Source: Rhizobium mesoamericanum STM3625
GTDB lineage: Bacteria; Pseudomonadota; Alphaproteobacteria; Rhizobiales; Rhizobiaceae
Reading direction: 5' to 3'
DNA length: 64,000 nucleotides
Assembly: GCF_000312665.1 (NCBI RefSeq)
Contig: NZ_HF536772.1
Coordinates: 3,952,886-4,016,885 of the forward strand
Each line of letters begins with the position of its first letter. Position 1 is the first letter of the stretch. Positions 11,004 through 16,851 of the stretch are shown here, in pieces. The notes under the pieces are model-generated. The model saw only the letters and a program-made list of their open reading frames with translations, had not been told where the DNA came from and ran no database searches. The translations under genes and the position numbers were made by a program.

Positions 11004-11209
11004 CCGACCCCGCCGACATGATCCTTTGGCTCGATCGTCGCATAGCCTCCGCCATGACGTGGCTCGACGACCACGGACGGGAATCCAAGAAGCCTCGCCC
11101 TGAAGGCGATATCCAAACCAAGGAATACGACATAGCCCGCTTTGAGGAGATCAAGGTTGCCTACGTCAAGGCTCTCAATCGGAAACTGGCGAGCGAGGCG
11201 GCAGCATGA
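11000..11209 (+). CDS. Small phage protein (69 aa)
   Basis: A 69-residue, mostly helical protein (ADMILWLDRRIASAMTWLDDHG ... DIARFEEIKVAYVKALNRKL). ATGA overlaps on both sides tie it to the HTH gene and RusA. No known domain. Confidence 0.6.
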   Translation: MTDPADMILWLDRRIASAMTWLDDHGRESKKPRPEGDIQTKEYDIARFEEIKVAYVKALNRKLASEAAA

Positions 11210-11562
11210 CGATGCATTTCCACCTTCCGTATCCGCCATCTGCCTGGGATCTCTACGAAGGCTGGGGCATCAACCGCCGTCTATCCGGTCCCTACAAGAA
11301 ATGGCGCAATGACGCTGGCTATTTCATCAAGGCCCCTAAGCTGCCGATCTCTGCGCCATTCTCGCTCCACATCGCGCTTAAGCGCCAGAACAAGCGCCAG
11401 GATCTCGACAACCGCTCCAAGGCGGTCCTCGACTGCCTCCAGCACTACAAAGTCATCAAGAACGACAATCTCTGCGAACGGCTAACGATGACATGGGCGG
11501 AAGACCTTCCGGCCGAATGCGTCGTGCTGCTCCAGACAGCGGAAGAAGGGCTAGCAGCATGA
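11206..11562 (+). CDS. rusA: RusA-family Holliday junction resolvase
   Basis: A 118-residue RusA-type endonuclease, which cuts four-way DNA junctions made during phage recombination and replication. LHIALKRQNKRQDLDNRSK and AVLDCLQHYKVIKNDN (residues 54-88) carry the catalytic acidic residues of the family (D66, D68, D76, D87) and the K72 region; the usual IxDD is IKND here. Length is normal for the family. It is coupled by overlap to its upstream and downstream genes. Confidence 0.85.
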   Translation: MTMHFHLPYPPSAWDLYEGWGINRRLSGPYKKWRNDAGYFIKAPKLPISAPFSLHIALKRQNKRQDLDNRSKAVLDCLQHYKVIKNDNLCERLTMTWAEDLPAECVVLLQTAEEGLAA

Positions 11563-12125
11563 CGTGGTTCTTCGACCCTCTAGTGCCGCTCCACTACGAA
11601 ATGATCGTCATCGATCCGCCATGGGGCTTTGACCTCTACAGCAAGGAAGGCGCGAAGAAGTCAGCGCTGGCGAAGTACGAACTGATGACCGACGCCAAGA
11701 TCCTGTCGCTTCCAGTCGGCAAGCTCGCCAGCATGGATTGCCTTCTCTACTGCTGGGCAACAGCGCCGCAGCTTCCGTTGGCAATCGACTGCGTTAAGGC
11801 ATGGGGCTTCGAATACAAGTCCTTGCTGATGTGGCGGAAGACGACAGCCTCCGGGAAGATCCGCATGGGCACCGGCTACCGAGTCCGCACGACCGGCGAG
11901 GCCGTTGTTGTCGCCACGTTAGGCAATCCGAAGCAGACAGCGATTCCGCAGACCGTATTTGACGGAATCGCCAGAGAACACAGCCGCAAGCCTGAAGAGT
12001 TCTACGCGCTTTGCGATCGCGTCATGCCGCACGCGCGCCGTGCCGATGTTTTCGCCCGCGAGGAGCGCGCCGGCTGGCATTCATTTGGAAACGAAGTCAC
12101 GAAATTCAACGAGGTGGCAGCATGA
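11559..12125 (+). CDS. MT-A70 family DNA adenine methyltransferase
   Basis: A 188-residue MT-A70 protein. The DPPW catalytic motif is at residues 19-22, followed by the family's conserved order: LPVGKLASMDCLLYCWATAPQLPLA, AWGFEYKSLLMWRKT, GTGYRVRTTGEAVVVATLG and the C-terminal EHSRKPEEFYALCDRVMP. Members methylate adenine N6 in DNA (or RNA). In phages they protect against restriction or alter promoter methylation. ATGA coupling to rusA fixes the start. It lies two genes before a GcrA-type regulator, whose cellular relatives read adenine methylation at GANTC. Confidence 0.88.
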   Translation: MTWFFDPLVPLHYEMIVIDPPWGFDLYSKEGAKKSALAKYELMTDAKILSLPVGKLASMDCLLYCWATAPQLPLAIDCVKAWGFEYKSLLMWRKTTASGKIRMGTGYRVRTTGEAVVVATLGNPKQTAIPQTVFDGIAREHSRKPEEFYALCDRVMPHARRADVFAREERAGWHSFGNEVTKFNEVAA

Positions 12126-12478
12126 GACAAGAGCCTGAAGGGTTTCCTGAGTTCTGGGGCGTCTGGCGCCCTCACGCGCGGCACACTGACGGTCGCGGCC
12201 TCGCACGACAAGCTTTCGAGAAGCACCTGAAAGACGGCGCATGCGCTCAAGACATGATCGACGGCGCAAAGCACTTCTTCCGCACCATGAAGGACCGCGA
12301 CAAGGAGTTCGTTCCCCTCTGCGCCACTTGGCTGAACCGCGGCGCCTATGAGGAATTAGCCGAGGCAGAGCGCGCATGGAACGAGCGTGTAGCCCAGCGC
12401 CAGCAGCAGACGAGCAACGTCGTCACCATGCAGGTTGTTCTACCGAAGAACCATTTCCAGCGCCAGAACAGAGCATAG
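12122..12478 (+). CDS. Phage replication-associated protein (putative)
   Basis: A 118-residue protein. EGFPEFWGVWRPHARHTDGRGLARQAFEKHLKDGA and FVPLCATWLNRGAYEE are a pairing typical of the C-terminal region of phage replication/helicase-loading proteins, where the motif appears as FW..YP.K...A..AF and P.. WL..R. Here it stands alone. It starts at an ATGA overlap with the methyltransferase. Function inferred by similarity of pattern only. Confidence 0.6.
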   Translation: MRQEPEGFPEFWGVWRPHARHTDGRGLARQAFEKHLKDGACAQDMIDGAKHFFRTMKDRDKEFVPLCATWLNRGAYEELAEAERAWNERVAQRQQQTSNVVTMQVVLPKNHFQRQNRA

Positions 12479-12491
12479 AGGATCCAGCCCA

Positions 12492-13262
12492 ATGAACATG
12501 AGACCAGACATCGACATCGAGAAGGCAGCCCAGATGTGGAACGACGGGTTCACATCAAGCGAACTATCGGCTGAGTTCGGCGTCAAGCGCGATGTCATTA
12601 TGGGCGTTATCGCCAGGAACCGGCCGCTGTTCAAGCCAAAGCGGTCTGATGTGGACATGGAACATGCCGCCAAACTGTGGGCGCAAGGTTGGACCATGGC
12701 AACCATCGCCACCCGTGTCGGCTGCTCTGAAACGAAGATGAGGGCGACAACCAGAAAGCACCGCGATCTTTTCCCGAGGAGAGAGCGGGCGTCTGTTCTT
12801 CGAGAGCGCAACTGGACGGCAGAAGACCTTGAGCGCGCCTCTAAGCTTTGGGCGTCTGGCGCTTCGGCCAAGGACATCGGCCGAGAGTTCAGCGTCAGCA
12901 AGAACGGTGTACTGGCCATCGCCTTTCGCCACCGTGATCTCTTCCCGCTTCGCAACAAGGCTGGTCATAAGGCAGTGCGCAATTCGAAGCCAATGGCCTC
13001 GATCATGCCTGTGCGCCGTGCCGTCATCGTTCCCGACTTCGGCCCAGAAGAGCCGCAGATCCCCGCAACCGAATACGATCTCATGCGCCTTCCACATGCC
13101 AAGACGCTTGTCGATCTGGATCCATGTGAATGCAAGTGGCCTCTGACGGCAGGTGGCCCATTCCTTTTTTGCGCAGAGGTGACCGAGAAGCGCGGCCCAT
13201 ACTGCGCCAATCATCTGGAGCGGTCATTGCCAGCACGAGAAAATAGAAGGGTCGCAGCATGA
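12492..13262 (+). CDS. GcrA-family regulator with three tandem HTH units
   Basis: A 256-residue protein. The C-terminus (CECKWPLTAGGPFLFC ... PYCANH) matches the C-terminal region of GcrA, an alphaproteobacterial cell-cycle factor that binds sigma-70 holoenzyme and activates promoters with methylated GANTC. GcrA normally has one N-terminal HTH; here there are three similar units of about 45 residues (6-50, 53-97, 108-154). Each has a Trp (W16, W63, W120), a following Gly, an HTH and a terminal LF(P/K). The start ATG at 12492 sits 14 bases after the previous stop. Likely a phage activator of middle/late or host genes. Phage-borne GcrA homologues are known to me; the triplication is unusual. 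Confidence 0.82.
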   Translation: MNMRPDIDIEKAAQMWNDGFTSSELSAEFGVKRDVIMGVIARNRPLFKPKRSDVDMEHAAKLWAQGWTMATIATRVGCSETKMRATTRKHRDLFPRRERASVLRERNWTAEDLERASKLWASGASAKDIGREFSVSKNGVLAIAFRHRDLFPLRNKAGHKAVRNSKPMASIMPVRRAVIVPDFGPEEPQIPATEYDLMRLPHAKTLVDLDPCECKWPLTAGGPFLFCAEVTEKRGPYCANHLERSLPARENRRVAA

Positions 13263-13618
13263 TCTACGTGACGGGCAAGCAACTAGCCGGAACGGTCGCT
13301 ATGTGGGCAGTGCGGCAATCGCCATATCAGACACCGGATAATCTTGATCTTGTTGTTCGGCAGATACAGGAAAAGTTCGCACCGAACACCAGCTTCGGGA
13401 TGCTGATGTTCGAGGAGAGCAACAGCCTTCGCCGGTACGTCTCCAAAATCCTCCGGAGCATTCCGGAATATGTGAAGTGGAACGACCGCAAGAACGGCAA
13501 CGACGCTCCCTTAAAGTTCTCGTCGGCCTATGATCTTCCCGGTGATCCGGACGACGATTTCATCGATTTGGACGCGCTAGAAGGCAATGTAGCCCGATCC
13601 ATCTCATCAGAAGACTAA
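13259..13618 (+). CDS. Phage hypothetical protein
   Basis: A 119-residue acidic protein with an ATGA overlap to the GcrA-like gene. MIYVTGKQLAGTVAMWAVRQ is followed by a helical core and the highly acidic PGDPDDDFIDLDALEG. No known family; conserved neighbourhood suggests a regulatory or replication partner. Confidence 0.6.
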   Translation: MIYVTGKQLAGTVAMWAVRQSPYQTPDNLDLVVRQIQEKFAPNTSFGMLMFEESNSLRRYVSKILRSIPEYVKWNDRKNGNDAPLKFSSAYDLPGDPDDDFIDLDALEGNVARSISSED

Positions 13619-13633: not shown

Positions 13634-14266
13634 ATGGCATCAAAGGCGGCAAAACTTCGATCCAAGAGAGCATCCAGCAAGGCAGGGCGTCCCCGTAAGG
13701 AGAACGTAGAGCGATACCCGAGCGGCGACATCAAGCGCCACGAAACAGAAAAGGAAGCTCTCAGCGTGGCACTGGAAGCACGGAAGCGCATTCACGGCCT
13801 ATCAGAAAACAACGCCCTGGCTGGCTACACGCTGGGGCGCATGTACCTCGATGGCTCTATTAGCGACGAGCAGCGCAAGGCTGGCGACGAGTATGCGGAG
13901 ATCATCGCCCGATATCACCGGATGGTAGGCATCCCGGCTCCTAGCGCCCGAGCGCAATCGCTGTTCTCGGTCAAGGGTCATGATGGCGAAGTGACCGACA
14001 GCCTCGCCAAGCGAGCACGAGACGCCAGCAACCGCATGATGGAAGTGACCGGCATCCTGCTTCGCTGCGAAGATGGGCCGCAGGTCAAGGGAACGGTCCA
14101 TAACCTGTGCGTAATGGATTACGAGCATCTTCGCGGAATGGCCCCGCAGCAATTGTTGTGGCTTAAGCGGGGATTGAACGCTTTGATCAAGGCGAAGGAG
14201 TTGCGTGAGAAGGGCAAATCAGTTATGAGTTGGGATATTACATCCTCAGAACTGTCTGTTGTTTGA
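13634..14266 (+). CDS. Phage hypothetical protein
   Basis: A 210-residue protein with a basic N-terminus (KAAKLRSKRASSKAGRPRKENVERYPSG, residues 6-33) that looks like a DNA-binding tail. A helical domain follows, including SLAKRARDASNRMMEVTGILLRC and LLWLKRGLNALIKAKELREKG. Proteins of this layout commonly precede the terminase in rhizobial prophages, where late-gene control is a plausible role, but no proof is visible. GAGGAAGAGG precedes the ATG. Confidence 0.65.
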   Translation: MASKAAKLRSKRASSKAGRPRKENVERYPSGDIKRHETEKEALSVALEARKRIHGLSENNALAGYTLGRMYLDGSISDEQRKAGDEYAEIIARYHRMVGIPAPSARAQSLFSVKGHDGEVTDSLAKRARDASNRMMEVTGILLRCEDGPQVKGTVHNLCVMDYEHLRGMAPQQLLWLKRGLNALIKAKELREKGKSVMSWDITSSELSVV

Positions 14267-14490
14267 GGCTTAGCCTCCCAAAGGATTCCGCGTTACGCGC
14301 TTCCGACAGTGCGCGGTCTTAGAATCTCGGAGCGTGGCGGCAGAGTAGGTGAAAGACCCTGAGATGCCGTAGGGGACGCGAAACCGATCAGTAGGATGCC
14401 TTAAGTGGCGTCAGAATCTCGGCCCCTTACTCAAATCCTTGTTCGCAAGGTCGGCAGGCTGGCCTCTGCCGTTCTCATTCAGGAGATATC
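14267..14490 (+). other. Non-coding leader-like interval before the terminase region
   Basis: A 224-base interval without a convincing gene. AGAATCTCGG appears twice (about 14,321 and 14,411), and gatgcc motifs recur (14,362 and 14,396). It ends with a GGAGAT site before the next gene. It might hold a late promoter or a structured RNA; nothing decisive is seen. Confidence 0.35.
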
Positions 14491-14967: not shown

Positions 14968-15197
14968 TCATCGATCTCAACGCAGAGCGAGACAAGCGAA
15001 ACGCCCCAGACGCCGAGCATATCAGAACAGACCAATTCGGCCGTCAGATGTTCCAATACCTCTGCGATTACAGGATGAACGATTCAGTCTGGTCTCTCCG
15101 CATCTGGGCATACTCGCAGGAAGACGCAGAAGCACGGATTGAGGCAATCAGAGGCTCGCTCGCGTATCTCGGGCAGCTTTATACGGTAGTTTCGTAG
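14964..15197 (+). CDS. Phage hypothetical protein, TTG start
   Basis: A 77-residue protein (IIDLNAERDKRNAPDAEHIRTDQFGRQMFQYLCDYRMNDSVWSLRIWAYSQEDAEARIEAIRGSL, written here in part as a mixed strand/helix domain). The C-terminus SQEDAEARIEAIRGSL resembles the end of small double-psi-like phage proteins. TTG 14964 overlaps the upstream TGA. The longer frame from 14922 lies inside the preceding ORF and is rejected. Confidence 0.6.
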   Translation: MIIDLNAERDKRNAPDAEHIRTDQFGRQMFQYLCDYRMNDSVWSLRIWAYSQEDAEARIEAIRGSLAYLGQLYTVVS

Positions 15198-15281
15198 AAA
15201 ATTCGTATCGCGAAATGCGAAGGGCCTACCGGCCAGCAGGAATAATATTCCACCAGACCCGAAAGGGAGTGGAGACCACGC

Positions 15282-15581
15282 ATGAATAAAATAGAGGACA
15301 ACAATAATCTTTCGCGAAAGGGCGCTGGCCGCCCGAAAGGAAGCCAGAACAAGGTTTCCAAGGCAGCGAAGGATGCAATAGCCGAGGCGGCTGAACAACT
15401 CGGCGGGGCAAAGCGCATCGTAGCATGGGCCAAGGAAGCTCCAGAGAACGAGCGCGCATTCTGGGCCACGATCTATCCGAAGCTCATCCCGGTTCAATTG
15501 GCCGGTGACGCTGACAACCCGATCAATCACGTTCACACCATCGAACGCCGCATTGTCCGTCCTTCAGATACCAACGGCTGA
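15282..15581 (+). CDS. Terminase small subunit-like protein
   Basis: A 99-residue protein immediately before TerL. A basic linker (RKGAGRPKGSQNKVSKAAKDA, residues about 12-32) is followed by AEQLGGAKRIVAWAKEAPENERAFWATIYPKLIP, a helical unit seen in DNA-packaging proteins that precede PBSX-type large terminases. It likely recognises phage DNA for packaging. GGGAGTGG upstream serves as ribosome site. It overlaps the TerL start by 29 bases. Confidence 0.75.
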   Translation: MNKIEDNNNLSRKGAGRPKGSQNKVSKAAKDAIAEAAEQLGGAKRIVAWAKEAPENERAFWATIYPKLIPVQLAGDADNPINHVHTIERRIVRPSDTNG

Positions 15582-16851
15582 GGTTTTCGAGCCTCTTCTC
15601 GCCCCATCTCGATACAAAGGCGCAAAGGGCGGGCGTGGCTCTGGCAAGTCGCATTTCTTCGGTGGCCTGATGATCGAGGACCATCTCGCAGAACGCGGAA
15701 TGCTTTCGGTCTGCATTCGTGAGGTGCAAAAGACGCTGGCCGACTCCTCGAAGCGATTGCTAGAGGGGAAGCTAGCTGATTTCGGCTTAGGCGAAGCGGA
15801 CGGCTTCAAGGTCTTCCGCGATACGATCGAAACGCCAGGAGATGGCGCGATTATCTTCCAAGGCATGCAGGATCACACTGCGGAGTCGATAAAGTCTCTC
15901 GAAGGCTTCAAGCGGGCTTGGTGGGAAGAAGCACAGACGGCCTCGGCTCGATCGCTAAACCTGCTCCGGCCGACGATCCGCGCTCCAGGCTCGGAGATCT
16001 GGTTTAGCTGGAACCCGCGCCGCAAGGTTGACCCTGTTGACCTGATGATGTGCGGCGATGAGCGGCCAACTGGTTCGGTTCTCGTCACAGCCAATTGGAG
16101 AGACAACCCCTGGCTCACTCCCGAACTGGAGCAAGAGCGCCTCGACTGCCTCCGCATGCAGCCCGACCAATACGACCACATCTGGGAGGGCGGGTATTTG
16201 AGCGTTGCATCGGGCGCCTACTACGCCAGACATCTCGCGGACGCCAAGAATGAAGGCCGCATCGGCAAGGTAGCCGCTGACCCGCTCATGACCATCCGGC
16301 TCATCTGCGATATCGGCGGCACTGGCGCACGAGCTGACGCATTCACGATCTGGGCATGCCAATTCATCGGCAAGGAGATCCGGTGGCTCGATTACTACGA
16401 GGCGGTTGGGCAACCACTGGCATCGCATCTCAACTGGTGCAGGTCAAAAGGATACACGCCAGAGCGGGCGCAATTCTGGCTGCCGCACGATGGCTCGACC
16501 AACGACAAGGTTTACGACGTTTCCTACGAAAGCGCGCTCCGTGAGTCCGGCTATCGGGTGACGGTCGTCCCTAATCAGGGGAAGGGCGCCGCATCTGCTC
16601 GCATCGAAGCAGCAAGACGCCTGTTTCCGAATATGTGGTTCAACGAGGCGACGACCGAAGGCGGGCGCGCTGCTCTCGGCTGGTATCACGAGAAGAAAGA
16701 CGACGCTCGCGGCATTGGCCTTGGCCCAGAGCATGATTGGGCCTCGCATGGCGCAGACGCATTCGGCCTTGGCTGTGTCGTCTACGAAGAACCGACAGTT
16801 GCAAAGAAACGAGATCCCCGCGCTTCAGGCGTTGGAGGCTGGATGGCGTGA
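15553..16851 (+). CDS. Terminase large subunit
   Basis: A 432-residue packaging motor. Walker A GGRGSGKS is at residues 26-33, and an acidic ATPase motif is in FKRAWWEEAQ near residue 130. The C-terminal nuclease domain includes ICDIGGTGARADAFTIW and HDGSTNDKVYDVS, giving a Terminase_3/6-like (PBSX-type) layout. No ATG is available near the N-terminus; TTG 15553 gives the shortest complete protein and overlaps the small subunit gene. The stop overlaps the portal start as TGATG. Confidence 0.85.
   Translation: MSVLQIPTAEVFEPLLAPSRYKGAKGGRGSGKSHFFGGLMIEDHLAERGMLSVCIREVQKTLADSSKRLLEGKLADFGLGEADGFKVFRDTIETPGDGAIIFQGMQDHTAESIKSLEGFKRAWWEEAQTASARSLNLLRPTIRAPGSEIWFSWNPRRKVDPVDLMMCGDERPTGSVLVTANWRDNPWLTPELEQERLDCLRMQPDQYDHIWEGGYLSVASGAYYARHLADAKNEGRIGKVAADPLMTIRLICDIGGTGARADAFTIWACQFIGKEIRWLDYYEAVGQPLASHLNWCRSKGYTPERAQFWLPHDGSTNDKVYDVSYESALRESGYRVTVVPNQGKGAASARIEAARRLFPNMWFNEATTEGGRAALGWYHEKKDDARGIGLGPEHDWASHGADAFGLGCVVYEEPTVAKKRDPRASGVGGWMA

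Follow-up and report, generated by a model that had tools for sequence, protein, structure and literature searches.

The window analysed here, a stretch of 64,000 nucleotides from Rhizobium mesoamericanum STM3625, contains a gene for a GcrA-like protein in which three helix-turn-helix (HTH) units precede a C-terminal domain of the sigma-interacting type (Table 1). GcrA is a family of alphaproteobacteria, and the genome carrying the window (6.46 Mb, 7 contigs) encodes a separate gcrA elsewhere (7.4e-60) with 176-177 residues and one unit, as well as a RAMA-domain protein, which we take to be a marker of CcrM. The protein of the window is also encoded, 100% identical, on a 42-kb IMG/VR viral contig, and its gene is carried by a virus integrated in the bacterial chromosome (a prophage).

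Table 1. Coordinates of the GcrA-like gene, its parts and its neighbours in the window
Feature	Position	Strand	Evidence or remark
RusA-like Holliday junction resolvase, upstream neighbour	11206..11562	+	phrog_34, 3e-17
MT-A70-type DNA methyltransferase	11559..12125	+	PF05063, 108.8 bits
Replication-initiation-like small protein	12116..12478	+	phrog_270, 6.6e-9; no Pfam family
GcrA-like protein with three HTH units	12492..13262	+	256 aa plus stop
HTH unit 1, residues 6-50	12507..12641	+	cellular GcrA DNA-binding domain profile 16.3 bits; helices 9-17, 22-29, 33-42; resolvase-type HTH 5cy1_B, Z 6.5
HTH unit 2, residues 53-97	12648..12782	+	same profile 10.2 bits; helices 56-64, 69-76, 80-89; Lrp-type HTH 2vbw_A, Z 6.2
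HTH unit 3, residues 108-154	12813..12953	+	same profile 25.4 bits; helices 110-121, 126-133, 137-146; GcrA DNA-binding domain 5yiu, Z 7.7, rmsd 1.9
Sigma-interacting-type C-terminal domain, residues about 194-256	13071..13259	+	C..WP...FC...YC..H signature; alignments; 5yix_B match
Tad5-type Thoeris inhibitor	13259..13618	+	PF25190, 158 bits; start codon overlaps the GcrA-like stop
phrog_15385 protein	13634..14266	+	PHROGs
Conserved intergenic block, two adjacent predicted hairpins	14425..14473	+	49 bp; 96% identical to L071 8727-8775
Terminase large subunit, start of late genes	15505..16851	+	phrog_3717, 1.8e-44, on 15565-16848

In the window, replication and RusA genes lie upstream of the GcrA-like gene and the terminase gene downstream, all on the same strand, with an intergenic stretch and small frames between the phrog_15385 gene and the terminase. 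Tad5-type proteins, one of which is encoded directly after the GcrA-like protein, inhibit the type I Thoeris anti-phage defence; no paper joining Tad5, Thoeris and inhibitor was found in the literature searched. The phrog_15385 protein could be a late elongation factor of an unrelated kind; its structure model, with a mean pLDDT of 66.4 from a five-row alignment, was of too low quality for a structure search.

The same arrangement was surveyed in 79 viral loci, 75 of them with the C-terminal signature, L071 and L072 representing the close relatives L004 and L005 in the surveys of neighbouring genes. The terminase lies downstream on the same strand in 13/13 signature-bearing loci where it was recognised, and RusA upstream in 8/8 (the window included in both), recognition being partial since the seeds were drawn from these loci and only similar genes could be recognised. 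One of the 13, L088, has only a short signature frame below the 60-aa cut, and L075 and L076, with a terminase and no signature ORF, were left out. Of the 79 viral loci, 11 carry a recognised NusG-type gene and nine a phrog_15385 gene (the window, L037, L071, L098, L109, L122, L130, L139 and L140), and no locus has both; L100, L102, L103 and L106 are near-copies, so these counts are not independent. The NusG assignment was confirmed by Pfam in L072, L073 and L074 and not in L039, while PHROGs gave a transcription antiterminator for the same three and, weakly, for L039. The stop-to-stop frame of the antiterminator abuts or overlaps the GcrA-like frame in L072, L073, L074, L100, L102, L103, L106 and L127; the NusG-type gene is about 2 kb away in L039 and about 5 kb away in L108, where the match is weak (8.9e-6).

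GcrA family membership and the three HTH units

The protein exceeds the cut-off of the Pfam GcrA model (PF07750; 62.2 bits against 26.9) over residues 107-243, and is matched by the phage family phrog_16311, which has no assigned function (1.6e-49; three stretches when E values up to 1 are admitted). It scores only 44.5 bits against a cut-off of 280 with the NCBIfam equivalog model of cell-cycle GcrA (NF050816), and has three units where the sampled cellular GcrA proteins have one. On these profile scores, it is a member of the GcrA family, yet no equivalog of cell-cycle GcrA. The GcrA of Caulobacter vibrioides (PF07750; 5yiu, 5yix, 7ye1) shares with it a GcrA-type HTH (unit 3), the linker, the sigma-interacting-type C-terminus and the Cys/His signature, and differs in that the window protein is phage-borne, falls far below the equivalog cut-off and carries two extra HTH units in front. 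The GcrA-type C-terminus proposed in the first-pass annotation was borne out by the Pfam match and by structural alignment (VIA-align), which superposed residues 201-247 on 5yix_B, the sigma-interacting domain of GcrA (Z 5.5, rmsd 1.8 A over 46 residues, 33% identity), and the best match over this region was not to another family.

Three similar units of the kind that the first-pass annotation had described can be read directly in the frame, each with a Trp/Gly pair (W16/G19, W63/G66 and W120/G123) and an LF. An independent profile of 49 cellular GcrA DNA-binding domains, containing no phage units, detected all three (i-E 4e-7, 3e-5 and 6e-10 in order), whereas the top domain in 1000 shuffled window proteins reached 2.6 bits; the three units described in the first-pass annotation are thereby confirmed. 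Unit 2 is the weakest, its profile match spanning 22 residues only, and in full-length matches it is unit 3 that pairs with the cellular DNA-binding domain. A profile of phage units gave 72.6, 74.1 and 70.2 bits for units 1, 2 and 3, having been seeded partly with the window's own units. Description of the gene as triplicated is right as to the number of units; at 27-40% identity to one another, they are not products of recent copying.

AlphaFold2, run on a 17-row alignment, predicted three helices in each unit with 10-residue mean confidence of 84-97 over the unit cores, in agreement with the three HTH folds expected from the first-pass annotation. The C-terminal domain was modelled as separate from the units behind a low-confidence linker, and the mutual arrangement of the units and the C-terminal domain is not predicted, given a pTM of 0.41. 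In VIA-align, the GcrA DNA-binding domain 5yiu ranked top, on residues 100-149, while resolvase HTHs resemble unit 1 and Lrp-type HTHs unit 2 (Table 1), Z values of this size denoting a common fold and not a function. Foldseek returned no match in the PDB at E 0.001 or better. Its best match in BFVD was A0A1U9HIQ8, a 272-aa viral protein (280 alignment columns, E 2.3e-9, 22% identity), which is maybe another multi-unit form. The third-helix stretches of units 1, 2 and 3 hold 6, 7 and 4 K/R, and the recognition helices differ from that of cellular GcrA.

Unit number among relatives and history of the units

Each of 56 non-redundant proteins with the C-terminal signature from cellular genomes has one unit, which agrees with the one-HTH norm assumed at the outset; these rows were the best-scoring matches rather than a random draw, and may include prophage genes. 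Among 66 viral relatives including the window, three units were counted in two, two units in eight and a single unit in 48, with none found in the other eight. These counts are not frequencies, because most viral rows were collected with a DNA pattern that fixes the codon choice and requires a CKWP core (65 stretches), and the cellular rows were the best-scoring ones. Rows identical in the last 120 residues had been merged before counting, and L002, L003, L006, L040, L070-L072, L086, L121, L128 and L133 had been set aside because they duplicate the window or another locus. Three of the eight rows in which no unit was seen (L107, L108 and L134) are cut by contig ends; this group also contains short or diverged frames. 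L073, which adjoins the window group, has an open 5' end and therefore at least one unit; some IMG/VR rows are possibly host gcrA genes, and L135 groups with the host's own gcrA.

Tandem HTH units joined to a C-terminus of this kind occur in Rhizobium phage RHph_X2_30, L083, L077 and L005, all with two units, and in L004, the only one of the 65 other viral rows with three, so that the search for homologues with the same number of units yielded one. L004 is 53% identical to the window protein and keeps its three units in frame. L005 retains two units, most of unit 1 having apparently been lost. Thus, unit number varies within close kin and three units are not required in every close relative.

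At the order level, 108 of 297 genomes match the window protein at E 1e-6, the window's own genome giving the sole non-partial match and most partial matches beginning at residue 84 or later. At the genus level, matches at E 1e-8 were found in 25/148 genomes. Of eleven genus loci that were read (L150-L160), two (L151 and L152) carry two units each and the others a single one, which in L150 comes with a GcrA C-terminus; the five inspected among L153-L160 (L153, L154, L155, L157 and L159) are short proteins without the C-terminal signature. A phrog_15385 gene follows each of the short one-unit frames of L153-L160; in L155 the two are separated by a frame judged by eye to be a LuxR-like HTH. Scans of genome contigs for relatives returned none in the first and two in the second. 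GcrA-like genes were also seen in two cyanophage-labelled records, L038 (Microcystis phage Mwe-JY13) and L080 (Synechococcus phage Ssp-JY42), the host labels of which may deserve a check.

The low identity among the units of the window protein implies that their multiplication is old. Unit 1 has its best counterpart in unit 1 of L004 (49%), and unit 2 is 47% identical to its counterpart in L005 and 44% to unit 2 of L004. These identities between phages are higher than those within the protein, which suggests that units 1 and 2 were already distinct before these phages diverged. The descent of unit 3 is ambiguous on identity values, as it is 44% identical to unit 3 and equally 44% to unit 1 of L004. 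A tree of the units had good support for only two of its 25 inner branches. In a tree of the C-terminal domains (70 rows, only 12 of them cellular, with bootstrap not settled), RHph_X2_30, L083 and L077 fall in one supported clade and the window protein, L004 and L005 in another, with single-unit rows beside the latter. The separate clades suggest at least two origins of the multi-unit form, or losses.

DNA sites and intergenic elements

As a candidate target of the protein, GANTC was rejected. It occurs 114 times in the window, and between 6000 and 40866 it is rarer than expected by base composition (68 against 129.8). Three GANTC sites (14284, 14322 and 14414) fall in one 225-bp gap that follows the phrog_15385 gene, and the AGAATCTCGG repeat contains two of them; neither this repeat nor GANTC sites in the corresponding gap recur in the closest relatives, L071 and L072. 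Allowing one mismatch, AGAATCTCGG has 8 occurrences against a shuffle mean of 5.35, and 20 of 100 shuffles reach 8. A second candidate, TTCGTA-N5-TTCGTA at 15191-15207 before the terminase genes, was likewise set aside: it was picked after looking, overlaps a stop codon, and is present in L071 and absent from the two-unit L072. A TTCGTA direct repeat with 11-bp spacing is expected 0.06 times with one mismatch, and was present in 6/100 shuffles. Between 9000 and 20000, a consensus scan detected no sigma-70-like site in front of the terminase, and its total of two sites is below the shuffle mean of 3.5.

The conserved hairpin block between the phrog_15385 gene and the terminase (Table 1) stands out in its likeness to L071, as other aligned pieces of the two phages are about 68-85% alike. 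Its 20-base core is confined to these two viral contigs. The predicted fold has a z of -1.43, with 17/200 shuffles folding equally well, and no notable Rfam match was obtained for the block. It could be a terminator or an RNA element that signals antitermination.

Proposed role in late transcription

Q of lambda-type phages is a late regulator, and the position of its gene is comparable to that of the GcrA-like gene in the window. The GcrA-like ends that the protein has kept, this Q-like gene position and the antiterminator found in some relatives point to an activator of late genes. Based on its domains and gene position, we give roughly even odds (about 0.5) to the window protein being a sigma70-cofactor activator of phage late genes with a three-HTH DNA-binding part. 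The C-terminal domain would bind domain 2 of the host sigma70, as that of Caulobacter GcrA does, while the three HTHs would grip an extended or repeated site at the phage late promoter, at which host RNA polymerase would be recruited or activated. The protein would then do by initiation the job of lambda Q, and the extra HTHs could give an affinity and specificity that depend less on GANTC methylation. In relatives with a NusG-family antiterminator, which mostly adjoins the GcrA-like gene, the two might form an activator-plus-antiterminator late switch. An extended or clustered DNA site for three HTHs, as put forward in the first-pass annotation, is plausible.

Some published work bears on this scheme. 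In Caulobacter, excerpts of one review place the C-terminal domain of GcrA on sigma domain 2 and its N-terminal domain on m6A promoter DNA, and describe GcrA as a sigma70 cofactor that reads DNA methylation and speeds open-complex formation (PMC7403470). Brevundimonas subvibrioides has an operon of 26 genes, among them portal, prohead, terminase and tail genes, that depends on GcrA, for reasons that were unclear to the authors in the part of their text at hand (PMC7987155). By proposed role, the window protein resembles GafY/GafZ, which as activator plus antiterminator run the phage-like gene transfer agent cluster of Caulobacter, with GafY drawn as RpoD-binding (PMC11150451, excerpts). Like these and like lambda Q, it would switch on a phage-like structural cluster. 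Other observations count against late-gene activation. The scans for GANTC, TTCGTA and sigma-70-like sites found no binding site, L005 manages with two units, which speaks against a need for three, and in a published scan, in the part seen, the distribution of GcrA sites across alphaproteobacterial phages showed no unevenness (PMC9437464).

The first-pass annotation suggested that the phage could redirect the cell-cycle transcription programme of its host. This idea is not supported here, as the analysis connected no host promoter with the protein and the host has its own single-HTH gcrA, while the recurring genomic position points to the phage's own late genes rather than to host cell-cycle targets. 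A protein that mimics or overrides host GcrA at many host promoters, and thereby brings about S-phase-like transcription, would fit its family membership and was proposed as a hypothesis for the phage homologue by the phiCbK authors, in the part of their paper seen (PMC3556154). We consider it unlikely for the window protein, because the latter is distant from the cellular form (50-62 bits with the Pfam GcrA model, 44.5 against the equivalog cut-off of 280), its recognition helices are unlike the cellular one and the late-regulator gene position recurs. The same helices, together with the retained sigma-interacting-type domain, could be those of a competitor that holds sigma70 and diverts RNA polymerase from methylated host promoters, with late-gene control secondary; the K/R kept in all third-helix stretches suggests that DNA binding is still selected, and we regard such a competitor as improbable.

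Unit 3 might read DNA alone, with units 1 and 2 as drifting spare copies or protein contacts. The Pfam GcrA model aligns to unit 3 plus the C-terminus only, unit 3 joins the linker as in cellular GcrA, the weakest profile match is that of unit 2, and L005 does without unit 1. Against this stand the confident predicted fold of all three units, their retention in frame in L004, which is 53% identical, and the closer identity of units 1 and 2 to their counterparts in L004 and L005 than to one another within the protein; together, these leave a reading by unit 3 alone a rather small chance. Late-gene activation with a three-HTH DNA-binding part may also be extended to the wider family, and phage GcrA-like proteins may be a distinct class of sigma70 cofactors by which alphaproteobacterial phages control their late genes, each working with a partner of the NusG or phrog_15385 type encoded nearby. 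Some lineages would have multiplied the HTH to read a long composite promoter site without GANTC methylation, freeing late transcription from the CcrM cycle. This broader statement is less likely true than not.

Phage homologues of GcrA have been known since phiCbK, for which the suggested role is host reprogramming, as far as the excerpt goes (PMC3556154), and 26 Caulobacter phage records align over 93-99% of the single-HTH host GcrA (176-177 residues). The phiCbK-type homologues and phrog_16311 resemble the window protein as phage-encoded GcrA relatives; RHph_X2_30, L083, L077 and L005 differ from it in having two units, and L004 has three as it does. In the literature searched, mostly without subscription papers, neither a GcrA with more than one HTH nor a phage GcrA-like protein acting as a late regulator was found among the matches listed. 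Relatives with one, two and three HTHs on the same kind of C-terminus constitute a natural experiment on how a cofactor chooses promoters. If late-gene activation is true, the protein becomes a candidate late regulator for alphaproteobacterial phages, the hypothesis made for phiCbK moves from host takeover towards phage gene control, and an answer is suggested to the puzzle of the GcrA-dependent prophage-like operon of Brevundimonas subvibrioides, as presented in the excerpt of PMC7987155.

Tandem HTHs are known from other systems. The repeats in 1h88 and 1h89, which we take to be c-Myb, are likewise trihelical units that follow one another on DNA (Z 6.0 and 6.3 in VIA-align); they are eukaryotic, and Z values so low for small helical units may reflect a shared arrangement only. 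Cbp1 of Sulfolobales has three tandem HTHs that arose by duplication and are laid along one long DNA site, a single repeat, according to the part of PMC10883916 available, and is thus a precedent for the reading of an extended site by a three-HTH protein. The Cbp1 structure 2lvs is among the Foldseek matches, with a weak score (E 0.22). Cbp1 is archaeal and binds CRISPR repeats, whereas the window protein, with a GcrA C-terminus, scores far below the cut-off of the NCBIfam Cbp1 model NF040595 (21.8 bits, weak, against 140). In the control genome of Sulfolobus acidocaldarius, the GcrA Pfam model exceeds its cut-off, possibly via Cbp1 with its tandem HTHs.
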